Assembly (NCBI RefSeq): GCF_035474595.1
Contig: NZ_DATIND010000046.1
Location: 217,528 to 281,527 of the forward strand
DNA length: 64,000 bases
Reading direction: 5' to 3'
Origin: Longimicrobium sp.
GTDB taxonomy: Bacteria; Gemmatimonadota; Gemmatimonadetes; Longimicrobiales; Longimicrobiaceae
Shown: positions 40,637-47,542 of the stretch, piece after piece
Layout: the number at the start of each line of letters is the position of its first letter
How positions within the stretch are numbered: position 1 is the stretch's first letter
Translations under genes and position numbers: made by a program
Notes under the pieces: model-generated
Database searches by the model: none
What the model was told of the DNA's origin: nothing
The model's input: the letters and a program-made list of their open reading frames with translations, nothing else

Positions 40637-41233
40637 CTAACCGTCGTCCTCGTCCATCTCCCACGGCTCGCGCCTGCGGCGGCGGCGAGTGGTGCGCGTT
40701 CCCGGCTCCGCGCCCACGCGGCGCGGCGGGCGCCGGGCGACCTCGCGGCAGTTGTGCTCGGCCCAGTACTCGCCGCGCACCTGCAGCTCCAGCCACCGCT
40801 CGATGCGGCCGATGCTCTCCTGCGCGCCCGCCGTGGCGCCGCGCGCCTCGCGGAAGATGGCCGCCAGGGCGGCGCGCGCGGCCGGCTCGCCGCGCGGCAG
40901 CAGGTCGGCCAGGCGCGGGCGAAGGCGCCACTTCCGGTCGTGCTCGCGGCCGTGCTCCGCCAGCACCCCGGCCGGGTGCATCTGCAGGAAGAGCTCGCCC
41001 AGCGCCTTCTGGGTGGTCAGGTTGGGCTCGCTCAGCCCGTGCGCGAACTTGCGCACGGTGTCCTTGGCCACGCCCGCCATCTCGGCCACGCCGCGGATGC
41101 GGAACTGCGCGATCAGCTCCAGGGTGAACTCGCGCAGCAGCTCGGTGGGGATGTAGCGCCACGAAGAGGCGAAGTGCACGTACCGGGCTTCCCCGGCGAT
41201 GCGGCCACTTTGGCCACGAGGTAGGCTGTTCAT
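40637..41233 (-). CDS. Helix-turn-helix DNA-binding protein, paralogue A
   Basis: The 198-residue protein starts at ATG 41233 (MNSLPRGQSGRIAGEARYVH). The N-terminal half contains YIPTELLREFTLELIAQFRI and the HTH-like RGVAEMAGVAKDTVRKFAHG, then LGELFLQMHPAGVLAE. The C-terminal half is helical and ends in a basic RRRRRR stretch and acidic tip. It shares order and motifs with the protein encoded just upstream (41411-41956): Y-x-P-x-x-x-(L/I)REF, RGVAE and TVR-x-F. Likely a DNA-binding regulator; no ligand domain is recognised. The 5' end of zapE lies 81 bases beyond its stop, same strand. Confidence 0.75.
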   Translation of the reverse strand: MNSLPRGQSGRIAGEARYVHFASSWRYIPTELLREFTLELIAQFRIRGVAEMAGVAKDTVRKFAHGLSEPNLTTQKALGELFLQMHPAGVLAEHGREHDRKWRLRPRLADLLPRGEPAARAALAAIFREARGATAGAQESIGRIERWLELQVRGEYWAEHNCREVARRPPRRVGAEPGTRTTRRRRRREPWEMDEDDG

Positions 41234-41356
41234 GCAAATGTTTAGCAGGCGCCCCGCGCCGCAGCAACAGAGCGCCAAAACACCGCCACCGCTCGTACGG
41301 AAGTCCGATTCGGAGCGCGAAAGGATGGTGCACGCTTTCACACGGATGGACGAAAA

Positions 41357-41387
41357 AGCGGCCCCGGGAGTTCGTCCCGGGGCCGCT
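41357..41387 (-). terminator. Terminator of HTH paralogue B
   Basis: A perfect 13-bp stem (41357-41369 with 41375-41387), five-base loop, and T5 on the minus strand. Its sequence nearly equals the gyrB terminator at 42008-42040. Confidence 0.92.
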
Positions 41388-41410
41388 CGACACATCGCTC
41401 GATCGTCCCT

Positions 41411-41956
41411 CTACCCATTTGAGCTTTTCCGCTGCCTCCGCCGGGGAGGGCGCTTCGGCGGTGAGCTCCCGAGGTACTCCGCGGCCACGACGGTCTTCAG
41501 CCACTCCTTCAGCCGGTCGGCGAACTCGGGAACTTCGTCGGGAAACCGCTTCGCCAGCTCCACCAGCAGTTCGAGGTTCTGCTCGGCCGAACCCAGCCCC
41601 GGCTCGCGCAGCACCTCCTTCAGCTGCGGAAGAGGCACCGTGACGCCGGACGGCGGATCGTCGGGAGAAGGCTTCCGTTCGGCCACGTACCCCACGGGGT
41701 GAAAGTCGAGGTAGTACTTCGAGAATTTCCAGATCGTGGTGCTGCGCGTGACCCGGTCGCCCTCGATGAAGCCGCGCACCGTCTCGTGCGAAGTCTCGAC
41801 CTCTTCCGCGACGCCGCGAAGCGTCACCTCGTCCTGACGCTGGAGCAGGAACTCCCGGATCGCATCCTCGGGGACGTACCCCGGGTGGCGGGTGATGTGG
41901 AACTCCCGCCGGCGATCGGGCTTGCGTCCAGTTGGACCAGAATTCTTGGGGTTCAT
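41411..41956 (-). CDS. Helix-turn-helix DNA-binding protein, paralogue B
   Basis: A 181-residue protein from ATG 41956. A basic N-terminus (GPTGRKPDRRREFHITRH) leads to YVPEDAIREFLLQRQDEVTL, the HTH-like RGVAEEVETSHETVRGFIEG and FSKYYLDFHPVGYVAERK, aligned in order with paralogue A. A helical C-terminal region (about 110-165) and a basic tail (PPKRPPRRRQRKSS) follow. It is bracketed by two look-alike hairpin terminators. Probably a transcription regulator; the target is unknown. Confidence 0.75.
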   Translation of the reverse strand: MNPKNSGPTGRKPDRRREFHITRHPGYVPEDAIREFLLQRQDEVTLRGVAEEVETSHETVRGFIEGDRVTRSTTIWKFSKYYLDFHPVGYVAERKPSPDDPPSGVTVPLPQLKEVLREPGLGSAEQNLELLVELAKRFPDEVPEFADRLKEWLKTVVAAEYLGSSPPKRPPRRRQRKSSNG

Positions 41957-42007
41957 CGGAATGTATAGCTCGCTTCCCGCCAAGTGGCAAGAGTGGCCGT
42001 AACGCGC

Positions 42008-42069: not shown

Positions 42070-44461
<2,392 letters not shown>

Positions 44462-44649
44462 GGGCGATCTGGAACGGCGCTGAAAACGGGGATGATTCCC
44501 GGCGGATGGGTGCTCCCTAATTTAGCACCTCCGCGCCCGCCGCGAAACCTTCCCGCACCCGCAGATCTGGTGATGTGGAGACGCGCTCTCCACAACGGGT
44601 TGCGTTCTGTCCGCTTTTCACATCCCGCGCGGAGGATGCGGTCTTCTGG

Positions 44650-44720
44650 TCTCACGCGGAGCCGCGGAGACGCGGGGAGTGCCGCGCCGCGATGAGTTCT
44701 CCGCGTCTCCGCGTAAGATC
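44650..44720. repeat. Hairpin repeat of CTCACGCGGAGACG type, copy 2
   Basis: Left arm CTCACGCGGAGCCGCGGAG and right arm CTCCGCGTCTCCGCG, imperfect. See copies at 14596-14685 and 58140-58206. It lies in the 457-base gap before fic, which has no gene. Confidence 0.78.
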
Positions 44721-44758
44721 TATCCGGGGTGGGAGTCGCGGAGGTGGAGATGGGAAGA

Positions 44759-44802
44759 TGATCATGATCGATTAACGTGATCACGAGCGGCGGGGATGAT
44801 CA
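44759..44802 (+). promoter_or_regulatory. Operator-like array, block 1
   Basis: TGATCA hexamers at 44759, 44778 and 44797, exactly 19 bp apart, with ATTAACG before the second and GTTTTG after the third. The same design recurs at 44855 and 45963. Confidence 0.8.
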
Positions 44803-44854
44803 CGTTTTGACGCCCTGAATGCGTGACAGGCCCCCTCGAATGGCTTGGCAAACG

Positions 44855-44898
44855 TGATCATGATTCATTAACATGATCATCTCGCGTGTTCGTGATCA
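44855..44898 (+). promoter_or_regulatory. Operator-like array, block 2, directly before fic
   Basis: TGATCA at 44855, 44874 and 44893 (19-bp spacing). TGATCATG (44855-44862) and CATGATCA (44872-44879) make an inverted pair. The last site ends 20 bases before the fic ATG, so the block probably covers the fic promoter. Confidence 0.8.
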
Positions 44899-44918
44899 CA
44901 TTTTGCAGGGCAGCATCG

Positions 44919-45965
44919 ATGCGATCTTTCGATCCCGGCTTTCTTCGGAACACGCAGATAACCCACGGGCTCCTGCGGACGCTCACCGCGATCGCCGAGC
45001 GCAAGGGGCGGATCCAGCTGTTCCGCGACCACGCACCGCAGGTGCTCGAGACGCTGAGGCATGCCGCGGTGATCGAGAGCACCGAATCATCGAATCGCAT
45101 CGAGGGAATTACCGCCGCGCCCGAACGGCTGCGCGCGCTGGTGGCAGAAAGCACGGCGCCCCGCGACCGGCCGGAACAGGAGATCGCCGGTTATCGAGAC
45201 GTGCTGGCCACCATCCACGCGAACCATCCGTACATTTCCCGCACGCCGAACGTGGTGCTGCAGCTGCACCGCGATCTCTACCACTTCACCACCCTTCCCG
45301 GCGGCCGCTGGAAATCGGTGGACAACAGCATCACCGAGGTGCAGCCCGACGGCACGCGCATCGTGCGCTTCGAGCCGGTGCCGGCATACCAGACGGCCGG
45401 CGCGATGCGCGATCTGCACCAGCGTTTCGAAGAGGAGTGGGAGCGCGGAGAGGTGGAGCCGCTGATCCTCATCGCGGCTTACGTCCTCGACTTCCTGTGC
45501 ATCCACCCGTTCCTCGACGGCAATGGCCGGATGGCGCGTCTGCTCACGCTGCTTCTGCTCTACCACGCCGGGCACGACGTGGGCCGGTACGTCAGCCTGG
45601 AGCGCCTGGTCGAGCAGACGAAGGAGAGCTATCACGAGGCGCTGCGGGCATCGTCCCGTGGTTGGCACGAAGGCACGCATACGCTCCGGCCCTGGCTCGA
45701 GTACCTGTTGGGAGTGGTCGTGTTCGGCGCCTACTCCGAGATCGACGCGCGGGTCGGCGCGGTCACGTCCGGGCGCGGGGCCAAGCGCGAGCTGGTCCGC
45801 GATGCAGTACAGCGGCTGCCCACCACCTTCCGCTACGTGGACGTCGAGCGTGCATGCCCCGGCGTCAGCCGCCCCACCATCAACCGGGCCCTGCGCGAGC
45901 TGCGGGAAGAGGGCATCATCCGGTGCACGCGTCCGGGCCGCGATGCGACGTGGGAGAAATCATGA
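44919..45965 (+). CDS. Fic-domain protein with N-terminal inhibitory motif and C-terminal winged helix
   Basis: A 348-residue protein. Its N-terminal helical region has the inhibitory motif S58-N-R-I-E62-G63, so it is a class II (self-inhibited) Fic. The catalytic loop is HPFLDGNGRMARLL (196-209), complete for AMP transfer to a target protein hydroxyl. A C-terminal winged helix (about 300-348: RYVDVERACPGVSRPTINRA, LRELREEGIIRCTRPGRD) suggests DNA binding. ATG 44919 was chosen because earlier starts lie inside operator block 2. Three TGATCA arrays surround the gene and its stop codon is part of block 3. The AMPylation target is unknown; autoregulation is inferred. Confidence 0.9.
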   Translation: MRSFDPGFLRNTQITHGLLRTLTAIAERKGRIQLFRDHAPQVLETLRHAAVIESTESSNRIEGITAAPERLRALVAESTAPRDRPEQEIAGYRDVLATIHANHPYISRTPNVVLQLHRDLYHFTTLPGGRWKSVDNSITEVQPDGTRIVRFEPVPAYQTAGAMRDLHQRFEEEWERGEVEPLILIAAYVLDFLCIHPFLDGNGRMARLLTLLLLYHAGHDVGRYVSLERLVEQTKESYHEALRASSRGWHEGTHTLRPWLEYLLGVVVFGAYSEIDARVGAVTSGRGAKRELVRDAVQRLPTTFRYVDVERACPGVSRPTINRALRELREEGIIRCTRPGRDATWEKS

Positions 45966-46006
45966 TCACGAGTGATTAACGTGATCACGAGCGGTCGAAA
46001 TGATCA
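45963..46006 (+). promoter_or_regulatory. Operator-like array, block 3, at the fic stop codon
   Basis: TGATCA at 45963, 45982 and 46001, again 19 bp apart; the first overlaps the fic stop (TGA 45963-45965). TGATCACG (45963-45970) and CGTGATCA (45980-45987) form an inverted pair. Confidence 0.8.
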
Positions 46007-46020
46007 TGTTTATCAGAGAC

Positions 46021-46055
46021 GAAGGCCCGCGGAGAAACGATCCCCGCGGGCCTTC
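46021..46055. terminator. Probable bidirectional terminator between fic and the DUF4015 gene
   Basis: A perfect 12-bp stem (46021-46032 with 46044-46055) with an 11-base loop, between converging genes. No long T-run on either strand. Confidence 0.7.
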
Positions 46056-46078
46056 CGATCGTCATCTCCGCCCGACGC

Positions 46079-47542
46079 TCAGCGCGTGCCGCCGGTGGCC
46101 TTCGGGGCGGCCTCGGCGGGGGCGTTCTGGCCGGGGACGGTGCGTGTGGGCGGCTGGTTGGGCTCGGGGGCGCCCTGCCGCGCGGCCTGCGCCGCCTGCG
46201 GGTTGCCGATCTGCCCGTGCGCCTGCCGCGCCGCCTTCTCGCGCGCGGTGCGCACCCCCTGCCGGTCGAAGATGTTCACCGTCGACAGCACGTCGGCGGG
46301 CGGCGCGTACTGCGGCTTGCGGCGCGACACCGTCTCGCGCTCCAGCCCCGCCGCCACCTGCTCGTAGTGCGACCCCGGGCTCCACAGGATCCAGTCGTCG
46401 AACCCCACGTCGTACACGCCCTGCTTCTGCTCGCGCAGCTGCTGCGGGCCGTAGTCCTGGTGGTTGCGCCCCAGCCAGGTGGCGTTGAACGCCTGCAGCC
46501 ACACGTTCACCCGCGCCGGCGTCACCCCCACCTCGCGCAGCCGGTCGTTGCGCAGCCGCGCCATCCCCGCCGACTTGAAGATGGTCTGGTACGGCATCAG
46601 GTCCGGCTTCGGCACGCCGGGCAGGTGGGTCGGCAGGTAGTGCGACGGATACATCATCGGGTTCACGTGGTCGGCCGTGCTGGCCACCGTCTCCCACTGC
46701 TGCCCGATGTCCACGTCGCCCGGGTCGTTGGGAACCAGGCCGAACACGTCGGCCTGGATCATCACCCCCAGCGGGTGCAGCCGGCGCTTGGCCTCGTTCA
46801 GGAACGCGGCGATGGCGTCGCTGCGGTCGCCCTTCGCGAGCGGATGGATCTGCGGCGGAAGGCTCTTGTACGGCTCGGCGAAGCGCACGTAGTCGAACTG
46901 GATGGCGTCGAACCCGGCGCGCGCCGCCTGCTCGGCGATGGCCAGGTTGTAGTCCCACACGTGCGGGTCCCACGGGCTCACCCAGGTGTTCCCCTTCTTG
47001 TCGTGCCACAGCCCGCCGCCGGGCGCCTTCACGCTCCAGTCGGGCCGGGCCTTGCTCAGGATGGGGTCCTTGAAGACCACGATCCGCGCCATGGCGTAGA
47101 TGTGGTGCGCGTGCATGGTGTCCACCAGCGCCTTCAGGTCGCGCAGCGTGACCTCGCCCGGCTGCTCCAGCGAGTGCTGCAGCGGCAGGTCGGTGTGGTA
47201 GCGGATCCCCTTCTCGTCCTTCACGTCCACCACGAACGCGTTGATCTCGGTCTCGTCCGCCATCTTCAGCAGTTGCGGAAAGCGGGTGCGCGAGCCGGCC
47301 GCGTAGGCGTTGATGTACAGCCCGCGGATCTGCGGGGGCGCGTTGTCGCGCACGTCGCCCTGCGAGGTGGAGCCGGGGGCGGCGGGCGAGGCGGTCGCGG
47401 TGGCGGAGTCCGTCTTCGTCGCGGACGACGTGTCGCCGCCCGCGGACGTGCCGCCGGTGCGCGCGGGCGTGTCCTTGCCGCACGCCGCGGCCAGGGCGAA
47501 CGCCGCGATGGCGGCCGCACGGAGGAGGGGTTGCGTGTTCAT
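46079..47542 (-). CDS. DUF4015 putative glycoside hydrolase, lipoprotein
   Basis: A 487-residue exported protein: lipobox LAAAC after a short signal peptide, a Thr/Ser/Ala linker (about 25-70), then the DUF4015 TIM-barrel domain (about 70-400). Typical elements are IRGLYINAYAAGSR, INAFVVDVKDEKG, ARIVVFKDPILSKARPDWSV, FDAIQFDYVRF and HVNPMMYPSHY. The family is predicted to act on cell-surface polysaccharides, with acidic residues in VVDVKDEKG and FDYVRF as catalytic candidates; no activity is proven here. The C-terminal about 60 residues are Pro/Ala/Gln-rich and unstructured. Confidence 0.88.
   Translation of the reverse strand: MNTQPLLRAAAIAAFALAAACGKDTPARTGGTSAGGDTSSATKTDSATATASPAAPGSTSQGDVRDNAPPQIRGLYINAYAAGSRTRFPQLLKMADETEINAFVVDVKDEKGIRYHTDLPLQHSLEQPGEVTLRDLKALVDTMHAHHIYAMARIVVFKDPILSKARPDWSVKAPGGGLWHDKKGNTWVSPWDPHVWDYNLAIAEQAARAGFDAIQFDYVRFAEPYKSLPPQIHPLAKGDRSDAIAAFLNEAKRRLHPLGVMIQADVFGLVPNDPGDVDIGQQWETVASTADHVNPMMYPSHYLPTHLPGVPKPDLMPYQTIFKSAGMARLRNDRLREVGVTPARVNVWLQAFNATWLGRNHQDYGPQQLREQKQGVYDVGFDDWILWSPGSHYEQVAAGLERETVSRRKPQYAPPADVLSTVNIFDRQGVRTAREKAARQAHGQIGNPQAAQAARQGAPEPNQPPTRTVPGQNAPAEAAPKATGGTR

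Follow-up and report, generated by a model that had tools for sequence, protein, structure and literature searches.

Three arrays of the hexamer TGATCA accompany a fic gene of Longimicrobium sp., two ahead of its start codon and one on its stop codon. What reads these arrays, and why does one of them lie where the gene ends? The preliminary description of the window (the whole stretch of 64,000 nucleotides analyzed here) listed nine hexamers in three blocks with exact 19-bp steps, and direct reading confirms every position and every step (Table 1). The division into three-hexamer blocks also stands; the repeat unit, however, is 50 nt long, the 44 bases given earlier being the span from the first to the third hexamer (R1 to R3). 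As described, ATTAAC lies ahead of the middle hexamer in 3/3 blocks, 20 bases separate the end of the last hexamer of block 2 (44898) from the fic ATG (44919), and the stop codon TGA (45963–45965) is formed by the opening letters of the first hexamer in block 3. Compared as 50-nt units, block 2 is 68% and block 3 84% identical to block 1.

The hexamer occurs 21 times in the window, compared with 6.55 ± 2.46 times in dinucleotide shuffles, which makes it three times commoner than in the shuffles; 0/100 of these reach 21. In the whole genome (6,568,387 bases), a search for the exact pattern TGATCA-N13-TGATCA, with degenerate copies outside its scope, yields six copies, all of them inside the three blocks. 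At window 44640–44720, 5' of block 1, we also observe a GC-rich inverted repeat (ACGCGGAGCCGCGGAGACGCGG ... TCTCCGCGTCTCCGCGT), possibly one of this lineage's interspersed repeats.

Table 1. Positions of the fic gene, the hexamer blocks and associated features in the window.
Feature	Position	Strand	Description
Block 1	44758..44807	+	TGATCA at 44759, 44778, 44797; ATTAAC precedes second hexamer
Block 2	44854..44903	+	TGATCA at 44855, 44874, 44893; overlaps promoter-like site
Block 3	45962..46011	+	TGATCA at 45963, 45982, 46001; fic stop codon from first hexamer
fic	44919..45965	+	348 aa, class II Fic with predicted C-terminal winged helix
Inhibitory motif SNRIEG (class II)	45090..45107	+	From translation
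Catalytic loop HPFLDGNGR	45504..45530	+	From translation
Winged helix-turn-helix domain	45780..45962	+	Residues 299–359 of the 359-aa frame from 44886; AlphaFold2 model
Recognition helix	45870..45908	+	Residues 329–341; stretch covarying with half-sites; AlphaFold2 model
Sigma-70-like promoter match	44845..44874	+	TTGGCA-18-TAACAT, 9/12; consensus match only

Both motifs claimed for the protein are present in its translation, and with its inhibitory motif and catalytic loop the window Fic would be assigned to class II on either sequence criterion. An inhibitory motif of the form (S/T)xxxE(G/N) lies N-terminal of the Fic domain in 83/83 fic loci, the window included, and the loop pattern HPFx(D/E)GN(G/K)R is found in 80/83. 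The C-terminal winged helix, also claimed earlier, appears in the AlphaFold2 model (mean pLDDT 80.2). Pfam Fic matches the protein at 61.7 bits (cut-off 24), and the three Pfam HTH matches each fall under their cut-off. A longer reading frame would start at a GTG at 44886, inside block 2; most relatives start at ATG. The nearest solved relative is the Bordetella Fic 8uqu, for which we found no paper; SoFic (SO_4266, 3eqx) and CbFic2 are further off. Membership in two described families was rejected by score, the window Fic reaching 43.9 bits against the SoFic equivalog NF046030 (cut-off 550) and 25.5 bits against mobile mystery protein B, TIGR02613 (curated cut-off 124.4).

In the window, fic is flanked by dciA and gyrB on one side and by a DUF4015 gene on the other. 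A class I Fic toxin–antitoxin pair was also considered and rejected, given these adjacent genes and an inhibitory motif inside the protein itself. The site at 44845–44874 is the sole sigma-70-like match in 44500–46150 (one found; shuffles mean 0.1), and this candidate promoter, a consensus match, is overlain by block 2. Downstream of gyrB, at window 40637–41990 on the minus strand, there are two adjoining ORFs that look HTH-like by eye (RGVAEMAGVAKDTVRKF, RGVAEEVETSHETVRGF). They seem to be of one kind and adjoin an AFG1/ZapE-like ATPase, likewise identified by eye; a Pfam scan of 41411–41990 gave no match.

Related fic genes from many phyla share an arrangement of this type upstream and/or at the stop codon, with half-site letters that differ among genes. 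The common layout is R1>, about 20 bp, R2>, about 20 bp and R3<, an inverted copy, with TTAA directly before R2. The orientation of the half-sites is hidden by the palindromic TGATCA and is plain in genes with ATAGGTACT. The comparison covered 87 fic loci, of which 80 came from GTDB genomes, one was the window's own (L006) and six came from a search of its class (L007–L012). L009 and L070 are one record, a Gemmatimonadota MAG (the same record as G109, a Fic locus from the class search); L009 is left out of the position, cross-table, tree and orientation counts, and both copies are retained in the Mantel test and the helix-class pair comparison described below. A first block detector based on 8-mers marked 43/87 loci and was replaced by a score combining 10-mers with TTAA. 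With this score, 45/85 3' windows and 16/85 5' windows reach at least 17, as against 0.7% of 1087 control windows; 53/87 loci do so on either side and 8 on both.

Removal of near-copies (<85% identity) leaves 59/83 loci. In this non-redundant set, 28 loci have a block on either side and 31/59 have none by the score-17 rule; a 5' block is found in 10/58. Of the 28, 23 have a block on one side only, and the window is among the five with both. R2 lies at +8 to +26 from the first base of the stop codon in 23/57 non-redundant genes, compared with 1/1251 random flank positions. Among 34 layout matches in the non-redundant 3' windows, R2 is at +2 to +20 in 26, so that the stop codon falls within R1 or in the R1–R2 spacer. 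Accordingly placed stop codons within half-sites include the TGA of TGATCA, the TAG of ATAGGTA and the TGA of ATCATGATACC. Orientation relative to fic is nearly fixed in the windows that reach 17 (3', 39 forward and 2 reverse; 5', 12 forward and 3 reverse). The YPTLQ class deviates from the common layout, its half-sites reading R1> R2< R3> by eye. More distant Fics (35–52% identity) from viral contigs, a set of 23 loci of which 21 were read and 19 scored, and in which L191/L192 and L204/L205 look duplicated, have the layout upstream in 14/19 at p ≤ 0.05 and in 11 at p ≤ 0.01; the 3' layout is found in 4/19 at p ≤ 0.01 (400 control windows). Their half-sites use further letters, such as TCTGCATA, CCCTTAA and GGGGTAA.

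The half-site letters follow the recognition helix of the neighboring Fic. In a cross-table that counts a motif when at least two copies occur in the flanks, and that leaves six loci with singular helices outside, SRPT(I/M/F)N helices go with TGATCA in 18/18 loci (window included), SRPTIV with GATATCG in 6/6, xDLIRR with ATAGGTA in 19/28, YPTLQ with GTGATAA in 4/6 and RDM-like helices with GGTAAT in 4/6. The motif TTAAnGG[GT] is found with SRPT(I/L)K in 4/8 loci and with YPTLK in 1/2. Only two cells lie off the diagonal: one xDLIRR locus with GGTAAT, and one of three SRPTIQ/D loci with TGATCA. Three loci dropped from the protein alignment for their short reading from the assumed start (L092, L100 and L117) also fit the code, the first as SRPTINR with TGATCA and the other two as xDLIRR with ATAGGTA. 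No ATAGGTA was found in the flanks of five closely related cyanobacterial xDLIRR loci (L094, L097, L099, L107 and L108); in L099, L107 and L108, we see instead an inverted repeat (ATCTCCCA ... TGGGAGAT) 3' of the stop codon. The RDM class contains the Bordetella Fic 8uqu, whose recognition helix is VSRDMVRLVL and for which GGTAAT half-sites are expected; the structure is titled as that of an N-terminal domain.

In a search with 7-mers, the flanks of the 18 SRPTIN loci contain TGATCAT 104 times and equal stretches of their ORFs once; for ATAGGTA, the counts are 58 and one. A partial Mantel test relating helix similarity to half-site similarity, given Fic-domain identity, yields r = 0.731 (n = 51 aligned loci scoring at least 17, the doubtful blocks of L056 and L084, the latter a GCGATCGC-like repeat, being kept); 0/5000 permutations reach this value, the largest giving 0.20. 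Knowledge of the sites preceded the naming of the helix classes; the Mantel test, with its one duplicate record, is the only class-free test. A quick tree of the Fic domain implies at least 25 changes of helix class. Four independent switches involving SRPTIN are testable on well-supported branches, and the TGATCA block goes along in 4/4 in nearly every pairing; a sign test gives p = 0.125, and with only two xDLIRR switches the numbers are too few for significance.

Are such blocks confined to fic? Among 295 genomes of the class, 14 encode a Fic at E ≤ 1e-30, eight of them at least 49% identical to the window protein (its own genome included, and one of the eight split in two pieces). The exact hexamer pair occurs in 28/295 genomes. 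Pairs combine into a full triple (two of them at 19-bp distance) in just two genomes, the window's own and G010. For exact blocks, the search for triples without fic, by which the preliminary description proposed that its reading be judged, thus returns a single genome of the class without this Fic. In 45 further genomes, the triple TGATCA is found in 11 and the triple TAGGTA..TACCTA in 13; 27/27 distinct triple stretches are located at the respective fic gene, 26 of them beside a Fic of the matching helix class. The exception is L056, where a SRPTIK Fic with its own block has an additional ATAGGTA-type block 120 nt past the fic stop codon, perhaps a fossil of an older module of winged helix and operator.

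From covariation, exclusivity and position, we infer that the winged helix reads the blocks, as the preliminary description proposed; the covariation of recognition helix and half-site letters across the family argues strongly for it. Quite probably, then, the blocks are operators with three half-sites (R1> R2> R3<) bound by the winged helix of the Fic that they enclose, and this Fic likely represses its own gene. Block 2, lying over the promoter-like site, would repress initiation. The suggested autocontrol gains support from this position and from footprint and reporter work on CccR, a Fic-HTH protein that protects AGATAATCAT-N26-ATGATAATCT, represses its own gene and depends on dimers, according to the parts of PMC9755527 available to us. 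The DNA-binding helices of CccR are 70.2 Å apart (PMC9755527), and half-sites separated by 19–20 bp (about 65–68 Å at 3.4 Å per bp) would suit a Fic dimer of this kind. Looping between the 5' and 3' blocks, raised as a possibility in the preliminary description, might contribute in the window; among relatives with a block, 23/28 carry it at a single end of fic.

The block of G010, a genome of the same genus as the window but without this Fic, counts against the operator model, which needs a separate reason for it. It stands directly before a ligase-associated DEXH helicase, which matches TIGR04121 at 676.6 bits over its first 484 residues (whole-protein cut-off 850). In G179, this TIGR04121 helicase follows a fic with a block on each side, and in G224 (L153) a degenerate block lies ahead of it. 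The spacer of the G010 block (CTCGCGCGTTC) is similar to the one in block 2 (CTCGCGTGTTC), which makes a scar left by the loss of fic the best reading of the G010 block. A helicase regulon was rejected: of 13 helicase loci, 9 lack a block in the upstream stretch examined, 2 have one (G010 and G224) and 2 start inside the gene (L158 and L159). The G010 stretch (L043, 1484–1545) holds a fourth TGATCA 17 bp upstream of its full triple.

Why a block should lie on the stop codon is a separate question, on which the genomic setting bears. With gene neighbors picked mechanically as ORFs, fic lies within 40 nt of the preceding co-directional ORF in 14/37 loci that have a block only at the 3' end, where an operator of the promoter type would find little to control. 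The next ORF past the 3' block is co-directional in 29/45 cases and convergent in 15/45. Some relatives are found in BREX or type I restriction–modification-like operons. Upstream neighbors (n = 57) match one BrxC model in 9 cases and a type I methyltransferase model in 4; downstream neighbors (50/51 scanned, L117 left out) include PglXI in 4 and type I specificity subunits in 3. Gene orders include brxC–fic–block–pglX (L048), brxC followed by fic (L056), pglX–fic–pglZ (L112), fic followed by pglXI (L065) or by an OLD-type protein (L054), and fic after a type I-like methyltransferase (L069 and L119). The window fic lies outside any BREX or restriction–modification operon.

The stop-codon block may be a control site that does not depend on a promoter and moves together with fic, which might thereby remain regulated after landing in a foreign operon, BREX for example. 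Two modes of action can be imagined, a roadblock where fic ends and the capture of newly synthesized Fic. The former, or a portable operator, would account for control without a promoter of its own; the latter, if it happens in cis, would account for the overlap with the stop codon. These roles are put forward more tentatively than the repression assigned to block 2.

An extension of the capture idea, which we regard as unlikely, takes the stop-codon block as a cis-acting DNA leash, on which fresh Fic would be caught on its own gene and kept repressed or de-AMPylating. The winged helix would leave the ribosome last, as the ribosome reaches the stop codon inside the operator. A DNA-held state of Fic is conceivable in view of CbFic2, a class II Fic-HTH protein in which DNA binding alters activity (PMC10628234). 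That work, in the portion available to us, differs in using random DNA, with a specific site unreported, and its target is a host protein. If such a leash existed, the antitoxin role would fall to the operator DNA, which is copied along with the gene into every new location. Once a phage nuclease destroyed the locus, or a plasmid bearing it was lost, active Fic would be set free and would thereby guard the BREX and restriction–modification operons that house some relatives.

Returning to the blocks as operators of the enclosed Fic, comparison of closely related genes suggests that the winged helix and the 3' block are exchanged together. In pairs of different helix class with Fic domains 70–90% identical at the nucleotide level (n = 43), identity is 0.737 in the Fic domain and 0.548 in the winged helix, versus 0.762 and 0.714 in same-class pairs (n = 169). 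The 3' flank score is 0.375 in different-class and 0.49 in same-class pairs, against a random baseline of 0.32 (SD 0.05). The clearest case at the protein level is L069/L119, with 85% identity in the Fic domain, 50% in the winged helix and TGATCA versus TATGTAAT, even though the 3' flanks still score 0.47. Local alignments agree with a swap in many pairs: in L049/L076 (different class), the alignment breaks off with 202 nt of the ORF still to come, and in L049/L059 (same class) it continues for 52 nt past the ORF end; L054/L068 is among the exceptions. Since similar Fic domains with different winged helices carry different 3' blocks, the reader (the winged helix) and its address (the 3' block) seem to swap together.

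The genes are also mobile, which bears on the alternative named in the preliminary description, that a mobile cassette left the blocks as direct repeats. On this view they would be remnants of recombination or target sites, unrelated to the DNA-binding domain. L076 and L077 share 96.2% identity between −64 and +77, and no match was reported in their flanks; in many pairs, similarity is lost just past the 3' block. Judged by these alignments, fic plus its 3' block is a unit that moves as a whole. The 84% identity of blocks 1 and 3 and the block retained in G010 without this Fic would also suit a cassette, as would the different gene found between dciA and DUF4015 in G279. The shared units, however, end beyond the block (−64, +77; −55, +132) and not at it, no 5' block was detected in 18/23 non-redundant genes with a 3' block, so that there is usually no pair of ends, and half-site letters that track a recognition helix are unexpected of recombination repeats. 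A transposon or cassette with a block at each end was rejected, blocks standing on both sides in only 5/28 non-redundant genes with a block, the window being one of them. We therefore give the cassette little credence as the origin of the arrays and keep from it the mobility of the gene with its 3' block. The dciA–DUF4015 interval itself is variable (window 44461–46079 compared with L128): the same-genus genome G279 has an AhpD-like gene, identified by eye, in the place of fic, which leaves the insertion boundary unreadable there.

Still less probable is an RNA element, terminator or hairpin at the end of the fic mRNA. R2 and R3 do form an inverted repeat that could pair, with a loop of about 9–13 nt in the main classes, and two of four sub-threshold Rfam matches lie over block 3 (His_leader at 26.5 of 49 bits and Thr_leader at 20.7 of 55), far below their cut-offs. 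The same half-sites also occur upstream of the ATG, however; R1, a direct copy, lies outside the hairpin; and the letters track a DNA-binding helix. A scan of 44500–46150 found no terminator-like site with loops of 3–8, a range that leaves an R2/R3 hairpin outside its reach.

Palindromes are often read by other DNA-binding proteins, and TGATCA contains GATC; the blocks might thus serve a different host protein, either a transcription factor or a GATC methylase, with fic merely adjacent. There is no GATC in other classes (ATAGGTA, GTGATAA, GGTAAT), cyanobacteria include Calothrix (L049) with TGATCA blocks and Nostoc (L072) with ATAGGTA blocks, each beside the matching Fic, and triple patterns are absent away from fic in the 45 genomes, all of which makes such a factor very improbable. 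Integron attC sites were considered and set aside on reading the blocks against attC core sites.

CccR is the closest described system. Like the window Fic, whose winged helix is a predicted one, it is a class II Fic with a C-terminal HTH; autorepression is reported for CccR and would hold for the window Fic by the reasoning above. Its operator extends over 46 nt and repeats its half-site; the distance covered by R1 to R3 in the window is 44 nt. The CccR half-site resembles the GTGATAA/GATAATC class among the relatives. In contrast, CccR has two reported half-sites, upstream of its gene, and the relatives described here have three, also at the stop codon; a helix code, a stop-codon operator and module swapping go unmentioned for CccR in the available parts of PMC9755527. 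In the open-access literature, our search turned up neither a 3'-end Fic operator nor a helix code, and nothing on Fic in BREX. The feature is real and conserved, and beyond CccR we found no earlier description of it in that literature.

These findings point to a natural DNA-recognition code for a large and poorly understood class of Fic proteins, in which the operator could be predicted from the recognition helix and distinct half-sites go with the residue (N, K, V or Q) at one helix position. A control site lies on the gene's own stop codon and is apparently exchanged with the domain that reads it. Such joint exchange would be a simple route for a mobile toxin-like gene to bring its own regulation into any operon. 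Fic genes lie in BREX and type I restriction–modification-like operons, and a word search of the main text of a BREX survey (PMC12839542) does not return the word Fic, suggesting that a regulator or guard in these operons may have been overlooked.
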